DNA from: Culturomica sp.
GTDB lineage: Bacteria; Bacteroidota; Bacteroidia; Bacteroidales; Marinifilaceae
DNA length: 64,000 nucleotides
Assembly (NCBI GenBank): GCA_031271755.1
Contig: JAISVB010000067.1
Location: 1-64,000 of the forward strand
Direction: 5' to 3'
Shown: positions 16,357-23,217 of the stretch, in pieces
Layout: each line of letters begins with the position of its first letter
Numbering within the stretch: the stretch's first letter is position 1
Position numbers and translations under genes: made by a program
Notes under the pieces: model-generated
Database searches by the model: none
What the model was told of the DNA's origin: nothing
Seen by the model: the letters and a program-made list of their open reading frames with translations, nothing else

Positions 16357-18387
16357 CTACCGGATCTCCGAGCCGGGTTTTACGGTTTTTTCGGGGGAGA
16401 CGAATGTGAGGGTGCCGTCGGGTTCCGCCGCCATCAGGATCATCCCCTGCGATTCGATGCCTTTCAATGTTTTCGGCTCTAAGTTTACCAAGATGCTGAC
16501 CTGTTTCCCGATCACCTCTTCCGGAGTGTAGTACTCCGCGATGCCGGAAACTACTGTCCGTTTGTCGATGCCGGTGTCGATGGTCAGTTTCATCAGTTTT
16601 TTGGTTTTGGCGACATTTTCCGCCGCTGTGATCGTTCCGGCGCGGATGTCCATTTTCTGGAACTCTTCGAAGCCGATGTTTGATTTGGCGGGAGTTACCG
16701 GTTTCGTTGCCGACTCGTTCGCTTTTTTGGTTGCCAGCAGTTTATCCGTTTGCCGCTGGATCTCTTCGTCCTCTATTTTTTCAAACAGCAGGCCGGATTC
16801 GTTGATCCGGTGCCCGGCAGGCAGGACGGCGTCGCCCATCCGGCTCCACGCCAACGGCTCCATGTTCAGGAACTCCCGCAGGCGGGCGGCGCTGAACGGC
16901 ATAAAAGGCTCTGTCAGGGCTGTCAGGTCGGCCGCGATCTGCAGGCAGATGTTCAGGATGGTTTTTACCCGCTCTTCGTCCGTTTTGATCAGTTTCCACG
17001 GTTCCGTGTCGGCTAAGTATTTGTTTCCGAGGCGGGCTAAGTTCATGCACTCTTTCAGGGCTTCCCGGAAATGAAAGGTTTCGATGTTTTTCTCTACCCG
17101 TCCGATGATCTCCGGGATCTCCGCCAACACCTCCCGGTCGTATGCGGTCAATGCTCCCCGCTCCGGGACCACTCCTCCGAAATGCTTGTGGGTCAGTACA
17201 AGGGTGCGGTTCACGAAGTTCCCGTAAATGGCGACTAATTCGCTGTTGTTGCGGGTTTGGAAATCCTTCCAGGTAAAGTCGTTGTCTTTCGTTTCGGGCG
17301 CATTGGCCGTCAGTACGTACCGCAGCACGTCCTGCTTCCCTTTGAACTCTTCCAGGTATTCGTGCAGCCACACCGCCCAGTTGCGGGAGGTGGAGATCTT
17401 ATCCCCTTCCAGGTTCAGAAATTCGTTGGCCGGCACGTTATCGGGCAGGATGTAGGATCCTTCGGCCTTCAGCATGGCCGGAAAGATGATGCAATGAAAG
17501 ACAATGTTGTCTTTTCCGATGAAATGGATCAGGCGGGTCCCCTGGTCTTTCCAATATTTTTCCCACTCCGGGGTGAGCTCTTTGGTGGCGGAGATGTAGC
17601 CGATGGGGGCGTCAAACCACACGTACAGCACTTTTCCTTTCGCTTCGTCCAACGGCACCGGAACGCCCCAATCCAGGTCGCGGGTCACCGCCCGGGGTTG
17701 CAATCCGCTGTCCAACCAGGACTTGCACTGCCCGTATACATTGCTTTTCCACTCTTTGTGCTCCTCCAGGATCCACTCTTTCAGCCACCCTTCGTATTGA
17801 TCCAGCGGCAGGTACCAGTGTTTGGTTTCTTTTAACTGGGGGGTGTTGCCGGTGATGGCCGAGACCGGGTGGATCAGATCCGTAGCGTTCAGGCTGGTGC
17901 CGCACGCTTCGCACTGGTCGCCGTAAGCTTTTTCGTTGCCGCAATGCGGACACTTTCCGGTGATGTATCGGTCGGCCAGGAATTGGCCGGCTTTTTCGTC
18001 GTAAAATTGGAGGGAGGTTTTTTCGATGAACTTCCCTTCGTCGTACAGTTTCCTGAAAAAGCCGGAAGCCAGTTCGTGATGGGTGGCCGAACTGGTGCGG
18101 GAGTAGATATCGAACGAGATGCCGAAGGCTTTGAACGACTCCTTGATCATTTCGTGGTACCGGTCGACAATATCCTGCGGAGTGACCCCCTCTTTCTGCG
18201 CCTTGATGGTGATGGGGACGCCGTGCTCGTCGGAACCGCCGATGAAGAGGACGTCGGCCCCTTTCGCCCGCAGGTATCTCACGTATATGTCCGCAGGCAC
18301 GTATACTCCTGCCAGGTGTCCGATGTGTACCGGGCCGTTCGCATACGGCAGGGCCGTTGTTACTAAGCTTCTTTTGAAATGGTTCAT
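16357..18387 (-). CDS. metG: Methionyl-tRNA synthetase
   Basis: A 676-residue enzyme that charges tRNA-Met. It has the class I signature PVHIGHLAG (about residue 20), a zinc knuckle [18 protein letters not shown], the KMSKS-equivalent [10 protein letters not shown], and a C-terminal EMAP/tRNA-binding domain (about residues 565-676; [11 protein letters not shown]) that makes it a dimer-type enzyme. The start ATG is supported by the conserved [14 protein letters not shown] that follows. The upstream side faces the MNT/HEPN cassette, and a minus-strand TACTTTTG box lies at 18416-18423. Confidence 0.96.
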
Positions 18388-18454: not shown

Positions 18455-18479
18455 GGGAAAAAACGCTATCTTCGCAAGG
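18455..18479 (+). repeat. 25-bp direct repeat, left copy (carries a TATCTTCG -7 box)
   Basis: The 25 bases begin GGGAAAAAACG and end CTATCTTCGCAAGG. The same 25 bases recur without mismatch at 19150-19174. The copy contains TATCTTCG (18467-18474), a variant of the -7 box, and ends 21 bases before the MNT gene, so it may carry that gene's promoter. Confidence 0.85.
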
Positions 18480-18500
18480 TAGAACGAAAACGCAAAGGAT

Positions 18501-18818
18501 ATGAACCGTATCGTGACAGACAGAATCCCGGCGCTGGTGGAACTTTGCAAGAAATACCGCGTGATGCGGATGTATCTCTTCGGATCGGCTGCAAGGGGGG
18601 ATTTTGACGAAGATAAAAGCGATATCGACTTGCTGATCTCTTTTAGCAGTGATGTGACGCTGGAAGAGTATGCCGACAACTATTTCGACCTGATGTTTGA
18701 ACTGGATGAACTTTTTGGGTGCGAGGTTGATTTGGTAACGGAAAAATCGCTTAAAAACCCCTACCTGATCAGCAGTATCGATGAAGATAAACAATTGATC
18801 TATGAAGCAGCAGCATAA
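18501..18818 (+). CDS. mntA: MNT-type nucleotidyltransferase, antitoxin of HEPN/MNT pair (first copy)
   Basis: A 105-residue minimal nucleotidyltransferase. The active-site block LFGSAARGDFDEDKSDIDLL (about residues 26-45) has the GS...DxD pattern that binds nucleotide and metal. In characterised HEPN/MNT pairs the MNT protein silences the HEPN RNase by adding AMP to a Tyr of its RX4HXY motif. The HEPN gene overlaps its 3' end by 17 bases. A second copy at 22846-23160 is about 70% identical by eye. The cassette lies inside a pair of 25-bp direct repeats. Confidence 0.88.
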   Translation: MNRIVTDRIPALVELCKKYRVMRMYLFGSAARGDFDEDKSDIDLLISFSSDVTLEEYADNYFDLMFELDELFGCEVDLVTEKSLKNPYLISSIDEDKQLIYEAAA

Positions 18819-19140
18819 CATCCTCAAATGTTTGGTCGACATTCGCACAAGCATTGATGCCATTGAGGAATACCTCGGTTTGCATCGTGATTTTAATATC
18901 TATCTGAAAAACAGGATGTTGCGTAGTGCTATTGAGCGTGAATTGTCGATCATTGGCGAAGCTATGAATAGAATTAACCAGCTTGATCCGCATTACCCCA
19001 TCCTGAACACCCGGAAAATTATCGCTCTGCGTAATCGCGTTGTGCATGCTTACGATGGTCTTGACAATGAAACCATTTGGAGTGTCCTTGTCAACCACTT
19101 ACCCAAGCTTAAAGAGGATGTGGCAAAATTGCTCGGATAA
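18802..19140 (+). CDS. hepT: HEPN domain protein (DUF86), toxin of HEPN/MNT pair (first copy)
   Basis: A 112-residue all-helical protein. The motif RNRVVHAYDG (about residues 75-84) is an intact RX4HXY, the RNase active site that also holds the Tyr modified by the partner. Together with the overlapping MNT gene this makes a complete toxin-antitoxin pair, acting in the cytoplasm on RNA if it follows the known family. Helices around RELSIIGEAMNRI match DUF86. The base composition is more A+T-rich than neighbouring housekeeping genes, in keeping with acquisition. The gene ends 10 bases before the right copy of the 25-bp repeat. Confidence 0.88.
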   Translation: MKQQHNILKCLVDIRTSIDAIEEYLGLHRDFNIYLKNRMLRSAIERELSIIGEAMNRINQLDPHYPILNTRKIIALRNRVVHAYDGLDNETIWSVLVNHLPKLKEDVAKLLG

Positions 19141-19149
19141 TTCAGTTCC

Positions 19150-19174
19150 GGGAAAAAACGCTATCTTCGCAAGG
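19150..19174 (+). repeat. 25-bp direct repeat, right copy
   Basis: Perfect copy of 18455-18479, placed 10 bases after the HEPN stop codon and 22 bases before the ldcA start. Its TATCTTCG box (19163-19170) is at a plausible promoter distance from ldcA. Confidence 0.85.
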
Positions 19175-19196: not shown

Positions 19197-20087
19197 ATGA
19201 TACGTCCTTCTTATTTGCAATCCGGAGATAAAGTCGCCCTGGTTTCCCCGGCCGGCATTGTAGCCGCCGCTCAGTTGCAGCATGCCGAAGAGGTGCTGCG
19301 TTCCTGGGGATTGGAACCGGTGCGGGGACGGCACGCCTTGGCGCAGTTCGGTTATTTTGCCGGGACCGATGCCGAACGGGCGGAGGATCTGCAGGGGGCT
19401 TTGGACAGCGAGGAGATCCGGGCGATTTTCTGTACACGGGGCGGATACGGGTGTTTGCGCATCGTCGAAAAGCTGGATTACTCTACTTTCCAGGGAAATC
19501 CCAAATGGCTGATCGGGTTCAGCGACATCACCGTGTTGCACACCAAACTGACTTCGCTGGGCATTGAAAGCCTGCACGGGCCGATGCCCAAAAGTTTTGA
19601 AAAGACCACCGGGGAGGCGATGGAACAGCTCCGGCGCTTTCTGTTCGGGGAGGTCACCTCTTACCGGGTTCCCCCGCACCCGCTGAACCGGGAGGGAACG
19701 GTCCGTTCCGACCTGACGGGAGGGAATTTGAGCCTGCTGCATTGCATCCGTTCTTCGGTGATCGAATACCGGCAAAAAGGGGCGATCCTTTTTATCGAGG
19801 ATGTGGGGGAGAACCTGTACGCCATCGACCGGATGATGCTGAGTTTCAAGCTGACCGGCCGGTTGGACGATTTGCAGGGATTGATCGTGGGCGGATTCAG
19901 CGACATGTGCGCAGGAAATTTTGGAAAGACGGCGGAAGAGATCATCCGGGAAGCGGTGGATGAGTATGATTATCCCCTCTGCTTCGGATTCCCGGCCGGC
20001 CACATTCCCGGAAATTACCCGCTGATCCTGGGCTCTTCGATCGAGCTTTCCATTGAACAGGAGGGGTGTGAGATCACTTTTTTCTAA
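19197..20087 (+). CDS. ldcA: LD-carboxypeptidase, S66 family
   Basis: A 296-residue serine peptidase that removes the terminal D-Ala from murein tetrapeptides during recycling. The N-terminal GDKVALVSPAGIV, the nucleophile block KWLIGFSDITVLH (about residues 103-115; Ser in GFSD) and the C-terminal His in GFPAGHIPGNYP fit the S66 triad. No signal peptide is seen, so it is cytoplasmic. The ATG at 19187 is out of frame, so 19197 is used. gldH, trmB and mnmA follow on the same strand with short gaps. Confidence 0.9.
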   Translation: MIRPSYLQSGDKVALVSPAGIVAAAQLQHAEEVLRSWGLEPVRGRHALAQFGYFAGTDAERAEDLQGALDSEEIRAIFCTRGGYGCLRIVEKLDYSTFQGNPKWLIGFSDITVLHTKLTSLGIESLHGPMPKSFEKTTGEAMEQLRRFLFGEVTSYRVPPHPLNREGTVRSDLTGGNLSLLHCIRSSVIEYRQKGAILFIEDVGENLYAIDRMMLSFKLTGRLDDLQGLIVGGFSDMCAGNFGKTAEEIIREAVDEYDYPLCFGFPAGHIPGNYPLILGSSIELSIEQEGCEITFF

Positions 20088-22505: not shown

Positions 22506-22859
22506 TTATTGTTCGCCGAGCAGTCTGTCAACTTCGGCTTTGAGCAGAGGCAGGTGATTTGTTACAATGCCCCAAATGACGGTGTCATTCACGTTGTCGT
22601 AGGCGTGTATGACCCAGTTACGCAGATCGATGATTTTGCGGGCGTTACTGATCTCGAACGCAGGAGAGGTTTTAAGAATACGGTTTGTGGCCTCGCCGAT
22701 GATTTCCAGTTCGCGTTCCACACTTCGGCGGAGAGATTTCTTTTGCTTGTAGAGGTTGAAGTCGCGTAGTTCGCCCATTTGTTCCGTCAAATAGCTCTCG
22801 ATGGAGTTGATGCTTGTACGGATGTCTACCAGACACTTCGGGATGTCATGCCGCTCCAT
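22506..22859 (-). CDS. hepT: HEPN domain protein (DUF86), toxin of HEPN/MNT pair (second copy)
   Basis: A 117-residue helical protein related to the first HEPN copy (about half identical by eye). The RX4HXY motif is intact as RNWVIHAYDN (about residues 80-89), so the RNase site and the Tyr for adenylylation are both kept. It overlaps the 3' end of its MNT partner by 14 bases, the same arrangement as the first cassette but on the other strand. The larger N-terminal insert TEQMGEL distinguishes it from the first copy. Confidence 0.88.
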   Translation of the reverse strand: MERHDIPKCLVDIRTSINSIESYLTEQMGELRDFNLYKQKKSLRRSVERELEIIGEATNRILKTSPAFEISNARKIIDLRNWVIHAYDNVNDTVIWGIVTNHLPLLKAEVDRLLGEQ

Positions 22860-23160
22860 AGATCAATTGTTTTGTGCGTTCAACGCTCGCGATAAGATAG
22901 GGATTTGAGAGTGTTTCTTCCGCCACCAAATCAACATTTCTGCCGAACAAATCGTCAAGTGCGTAGTGCAGATCGAAATAGTTGTCGGTGTACTCTGCAA
23001 TCGTTAGCTCGGGACTGAATGAGAACAGCAGATCGATGTCGCTTTTCTTTTCGTCGAACTTGTCTGTGGCCGCCGAACCGAACAGGTACATCCGCACCAC
23101 GCGATACTTTTTGCAAAGTTCCACCAACTGCGGGATTCTGTCTGTCACGATGCTGTTCAT
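22846..23160 (-). CDS. mntA: MNT-type nucleotidyltransferase, antitoxin of HEPN/MNT pair (second copy)
   Basis: A 104-residue protein with active-site block LFGSAATDKFDEKKSDIDLL (GS...DxD). The first 90 bases are close to those of the first MNT gene, and the proteins share about 70% of residues by eye. Specificity positions between GS and DxD differ (RGDFDED versus TDKFDEK), which could prevent cross-talk. Its promoter is the best-formed of the two cassettes. Confidence 0.88.
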   Translation of the reverse strand: MNSIVTDRIPQLVELCKKYRVVRMYLFGSAATDKFDEKKSDIDLLFSFSPELTIAEYTDNYFDLHYALDDLFGRNVDLVAEETLSNPYLIASVERTKQLIYGAA

Positions 23161-23186
23161 AGCCTTGTGTGCATTGATCTTTAACG

Positions 23187-23217
23187 CGAAGATAGTGAAT
23201 AATTATGAAGAAGCAAA
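23187..23217 (-). promoter_or_regulatory. Promoter of the second MNT/HEPN cassette
   Basis: On the minus strand TTTG (23214-23217) and TATCTTCG (23187-23194) are 19 bases apart, the consensus spacing. The -7 box and neighbours CTATCTTCGC are identical to those inside the 25-bp repeat upstream of the first cassette. The MNT start is 26 bases downstream. Confidence 0.55.

Follow-up and report, generated by a model that had tools for sequence, protein, structure and literature searches.

A ∼670-bp MNT/HEPN cassette that carries neither a transposase nor terminal inverted repeats has probably inserted into the promoter of ldcA in the 64-kb stretch of DNA analysed here (the window), duplicating 25 bp of its target. 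The data directly support an insertion and its polarity, an empty site with one copy in a sister species, the missing native promoter of the cassette and the family-wide enrichment of bracketing repeats. The finding bears on the question of how compact toxin–antitoxin modules spread from genome to genome when no transposase is linked to them, and the locus illustrates how a compact cassette gains a promoter while its neighbour retains one.

A 25-bp direct repeat around an MNT/HEPN cassette

The 25-mer GGGAAAAAACGCTATCTTCGCAAGG is present in two identical copies in direct orientation on the + strand, at 18455–18479 and 19150–19174 (spacing 695), so that the perfect direct repeat described in the original prediction proved exact in position, number and orientation. 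With up to three mismatches allowed, these remained the sole matches across the 64-kb window, and 100 shuffled sequences gave none; likewise, the 21-bp core with up to two mismatches occurred only at the two known places in the whole 2.36-Mb genome. It had also been asked whether the 25-mer marks a mobile unit; the genome-wide search returned no further copies and none beside the other three MNT/HEPN cassettes of this genome. Because no further copy exists anywhere in the genome, we read the 25-mer as local target DNA rather than as the badge of a mobile unit. Both copies contain the box TATCTTCG (18467–18474 and 19162–19169), which, as anticipated, is close to the −7 element TAnnTTTG that together with TTTG at about −33 makes up the Bacteroidota promoter consensus (PMC7366714). 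By itself, TATCTTCG is mildly enriched in the window (6 matches versus 1.8 expected).

Between the two copies lie only an MNT and a HEPN open reading frame, which overlap by 17 bases. The first (18501–18818, + strand, 105 aa) encodes an MntA-like antitoxin with a nucleotidyltransferase fold (PF01909, E = 1.5e-18; PADLOC PDC-S09), and the second (18802–19140, + strand, 112 aa) a predicted HepT-like RNase toxin (PF01934, E = 3.9e-20); together, they are predicted to form an MntA/HepT-like toxin–antitoxin pair. The non-genic part of the inserted DNA comprises a leader of 21 bp before the MNT start codon (18480–18500, + strand), which matches the leaders of the paralogous cassettes at 10–13 of 26 positions, and a tail of 9 bp after the HEPN stop codon (19141–19149, + strand), read from the sequence; both are missing from the empty site of the sister species. 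The earlier statement that the repeat encloses exactly the two genes thus holds apart from 21 bp at the left end and 9 bp at the right. To the right follows ldcA (19197–20087, + strand; PF02016, PF17676), which encodes an LD-carboxypeptidase, a cell-wall enzyme, and owns the duplicated promoter, and to the left the divergent methionyl-tRNA synthetase gene metG (16357–18387, − strand; PF09334 and others). The G+C content of the cassette is 0.44, compared with 0.55 for metG and 0.57 for ldcA.

We detected no inverted repeats at or near either end of the insert, or in or near either 25-mer, and saw no transposase or integrase among the open reading frames at 14–24 kb (judged by eye). Lacking terminal inverted repeats, the insert does not match a transposon or miniature inverted-repeat element in this feature.

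The empty site and the promoter of the cassette

The sister species G001, the sole other species of the genus that we found, has an LdcA protein that is 89% identical, and its metG and ldcA genes lie 126 bp apart with no cassette between them. Its junction reads ...CGTCGGAAGCGGAAAAAACGCTATCTTCGCAGGAAATTT... and holds one copy of the repeat, with 21 contiguous identical bases. When G001 was aligned to the window, the metG side ran unbroken into the left copy and the ldcA side began within the right copy, the two aligned segments overlapping in the repeat. The comparison of metG–ldcA junctions that the original prediction had proposed thereby bore out the insertion, as G001 provides the empty site with one copy. 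Nor did we find an MNT gene between metG and ldcA in any other genome of the family whose junction was read. In all 11 closest relatives read, each of them cassette-free, a single TAnnTT[TC]G box precedes ldcA (in 10 of them within 75 bp of the ldcA start), in line with the earlier proposal that promoter DNA was duplicated. Because the box is found upstream of ldcA in 11 of 11 cassette-free relatives, the −7 box is to be regarded as an ancestral feature of ldcA. Taken together, the single-copy empty site, the lack of the cassette elsewhere in the family, the ancestral box and the low G+C content indicate that the cassette was gained and that 25 bp of ldcA promoter DNA now flank it on both sides; this reading draws on one sister species, a draft genome and promoter activity read from sequence.

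The opposite polarity, in which the cassette is ancestral and the relatives lost it cleanly by recombination between the 25-mers, is highly improbable: such a deletion leaves exactly one copy, as observed in G001, but every other junction read in the family is cassette-free, which would require many independent losses, and the G+C content of the cassette is low for this genome. An assembly error that created the repeat is scarcely credible. Although the genome is a draft in 75 contigs, 25 bp is shorter than the usual assembly word lengths, and both flanks match the collinear sister genome.

The genome contains three more MNT/HEPN pairs, one in the window (22506–23160, − strand) and one each on contigs C22 and C64. 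These three have a common native upstream region of canonical form, TTTG-N19-TA(T/C)CTTCG, and agree pairwise at 19–21 of 30 positions upstream of the box and at 17–20 of 26 in the leader. The 18501 cassette, compared with the upstream region of its paralogues, agrees at 7–8 of 30 positions, which is the background level, and TTTG at −33 is absent from the left copy, the right copy and the G001 empty site. As judged from these comparisons, the 18501 cassette has lost its own −33 region and is so placed after the ldcA promoter that the −7 boxes fall in register. The distance from the box to the ATG is 26 bases in all four cassettes of the genome, a post hoc match and hence weak evidence, and the native C64 box TATCTTCGCA matches that of ldcA along 10 bases without a difference. 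The absence of a native promoter and the unchanged distance from box to ATG would both fit a junction inside a shared −7 box. The left copy, located where the −7 box of the cassette itself would be, thus probably drives MNT/HEPN as a captured host promoter. The right copy, in front of ldcA, retains the −7 box together with some 12 bp on its upstream side. No terminator-like site was found on the + strand between HEPN and ldcA; since none separates the cassette from ldcA, read-through is possible, and transcription of ldcA may start from its 25-bp copy, continue from the cassette, or do both.

The second pair of the window (22506–23217 including its promoter, − strand) lies between mnmA and a glycoside-hydrolase-like gene, and its MNT is 71% identical to the first. 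It has a canonical promoter of its own, with TTTG at about 23214–23217 and TATCTTCG at 23187–23194, and the corresponding interval of G001 is occupied by an unrelated leucine-rich-repeat-like lipoprotein gene. We rejected the same type of insertion for this cassette, which has no bracketing repeat and for which the G001 interval holds that unrelated gene. On contig C22 (locus L120, G000:C22, positions 1–210), a short tandem array with a unit like GACGATCTAAAG directly follows HEPN near the contig end. The only close MNT copy of the sister species (locus L118, G001:C32, 3300–3850) is intact and followed by a truncated HEPN, so that in this pair the toxin looks broken and the antitoxin intact.

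Bracketing repeats around other MNT/HEPN pairs

We surveyed MNT/HEPN pairs for the best ungapped direct repeat between their flanks. In a first set, 11 of 58 pairs scored at least 18, and 600 mismatched flank pairs reached no more than 14; among equally spaced intervals of the same loci, 4 of 715 scored at least 16. A second set, gathered later and across the order, gave 14 of 82 pairs versus 14 of 790 intervals. With gene-matched controls, repeats bracketed 27 of 140 pairs but only 10 of 292 genes neighbouring them (odds ratio 6.7, p = 1.4e-7), and 21 of 134 pairs versus 6 of 280 genes when loci with attC-like or dispersed repeats were left out. The repeats around the 27 bracketed cassettes are 20–143 bp long and form a mixed set, including integron attC-like repeats (L064/L065) and dispersed repeats (L063, L086 and L101/L112). 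In the two Flavobacterium loci L064 and L065, the pairs lie between ∼120-bp repeats that start with TAAC and end with GTTA, like attC sites, and L064 has additional copies of its repeat close by. The bracketing sequences elsewhere differ by locus and derive from the local neighbour; none is the 25-mer.

Insertion with bracketing repeats therefore seems, from these flank comparisons, to be common for the MNT/HEPN family, and the survey suggests that about one in five MNT/HEPN cassettes keeps a trace of its arrival. Enrichment alone is no proof of insertion duplication, as repeat-rich places may attract, tolerate or simply hold more such cassettes. The survey also bears on the idea of a transposase supplied in trans that mobilized the cassette in the manner of a miniature element and left a 25-bp target duplication. 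This could account for the exact direct repeat at both ends and the single-copy empty site, but we consider it very unlikely given that the insert ends without inverted repeats, that repeat length varies widely among related cassettes, and that the paralogous cassettes have neither a bracketing repeat nor a common end sequence outside the promoter region.

In four of the pairs, the left repeat comes within 30 bp of the MNT start codon: at 21 bp for the 25-bp repeat of the window, at 20 bp for a 26-bp repeat with a TATATTTG box (L219), at 16 bp for a 77-bp repeat (L209) that places a promoter, TTG-N20-TATTTTTG, before both MNT and the next gene, and at 28 bp for a 69-bp repeat, equivalent to the nuoF 3′ end, at L089 (2880–3760), a locus situated between nuoF and nuoG. 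The insert at L089 reaches just 28 and 2 bp past the two genes. There, the 69-bp copy of the nuoF 3′ end is found behind the cassette, and the last nuoF codons seem to have been replaced by cassette leader DNA. No relatives with a comparable junction were found for L122 (G416), where the neighbour gene belongs to a repeated gene family, or for L182 (G391), L209 (G399) and L219 (G225).

A further site, downstream of purM in genus g3 of the same family (loci L249, L248, L247 and L250), is occupied differently in four species. G018 carries an MNT/HEPN pair here, bracketed by a repeat that takes in the final purM codons. In G082 this position is taken by a different MNT/HepT pair and in G079 by a Phd/YefM-YoeB pair, each again flanked by two copies of that repeat, and G080 has a single copy of the repeat and no cassette. 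Past the left copy, the sequence of both G018 and G079 has an ending that resembles that of a HEPN gene. Such HEPN-like remnants suggest, as far as sequence resemblance goes, former cassettes that were replaced or stacked. The window locus gives a clean occupied/empty pair, and purM, which offers a second such comparison, is a site where cassettes of different families succeeded one another. Repeats around toxin–antitoxin cassettes may later serve for cassette exchange, although allelic recombination between species would account for the purM pattern equally well.

As an alternative for the window locus, a circular or linear cassette already carrying a copy of an ldcA-like promoter could have entered by a single crossover, homologous or site-specific, with the 25-mer as attachment site or homology core. 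The purM site, where one repeat encloses three different toxin–antitoxin pairs, has the pattern that repeated docking at a shared core would produce. The end product of such a crossover would look identical to that of a target duplication. We nevertheless regard it as unlikely: the genome-wide search gave no third copy of the 25-mer, the other cassettes of the genome have a different promoter region, the bracketing repeats are locus-specific and derived from local neighbours, and no integrase was seen nearby (open reading frames at 14–24 kb, by eye).

Mechanism and comparison with known systems

We infer expression from the two copies, and likewise the mechanism by which the cassette was inserted and its target duplicated. 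Our best guess is that cassette DNA entering the cell recombined illegitimately, short homology assisting at one end. The left end would pair with the TATCTTCGC box that both have in common, and the right one would join upstream of this box, so that the stretch between the two would be doubled. The outcome would be a target-duplicating insertion like those described for restriction–modification genes. PMC3031569 and PMC3874152 cite Nobusato (2000) and Furuta (2010) for that insertion with long target duplication. More generally, and only tentatively, the toxin–antitoxin cassettes of Bacteroidota, MNT/HEPN above all, could be transposase-free mobile units that make target duplications of 25 to >140 bp and often take over a host promoter or operon while the neighbour keeps a copy, the repeats then providing a docking place for swapping and stacking.

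Characterized HepT/MntA systems (HEPN/MNT, type VII) have the motifs RX4HXY in HEPN and GSX10DXD in MntA (PMC7641770). The cassette resembles them in that its PF01934 and PF01909 genes are adjacent in one operon and the HEPN translation (18802–19140) contains RX4HXY, as RNRVVHAY. It differs in gene order, with MNT before HEPN, in the MNT signature GSAARGDFDEDKSDID, which reads GSX11DXD and is one residue longer, and in that both proteins fall below the NCBIfam equivalog cut-offs of 60 bits (46.6 bits for MNT against NF047752 MntA_antitoxin and 39.4 bits for HEPN against NF047751 HepT_toxin). GSX11DXD is found in both MNTs of the window (18501–18818 and 22846–23160), and the paralogue on C64 has the ten-residue spacing.

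Toxin–antitoxin gene cassettes of integrons are similarly compact and bracketed by repeats, and the Flavobacterium loci L064/L065 have attC-like repeats. The window cassette, in contrast, does not match an integron gene cassette, as its repeat duplicates the local ldcA promoter sequence and no attC-like inverted arms were seen in or near either 25-mer.

In the literature searched, which covered a minority of subscription papers, we found no direct report of target duplication upon insertion of a toxin–antitoxin unit. Two papers describe, for restriction–modification genes, insertion with long, variable target duplications of ∼100 bp and without a linked mobile element (PMC3031569, PMC3874152). 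The original prediction had taken the length of the 25-bp repeat as an argument against target duplication and for recombination between promoter copies, an argument that does not hold, given that those papers report long, variable duplications as the mark of such insertions; the two descriptions may refer to one event. Compared with what is described there, the cassette of the window is likewise a small addictive unit without a linked mobile element, with direct repeats made of the local target and a single-copy empty site. The repeats of the bracketed family members, a mixed set, may vary in length in a comparable way. The window cassette differs in that the genes are MNT/HEPN, the duplication is 25 bp rather than ∼100 bp, and the promoter is split between the cassette and its neighbour. 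The insertion signature of restriction–modification genes is thereby extended to the MNT/HEPN family.
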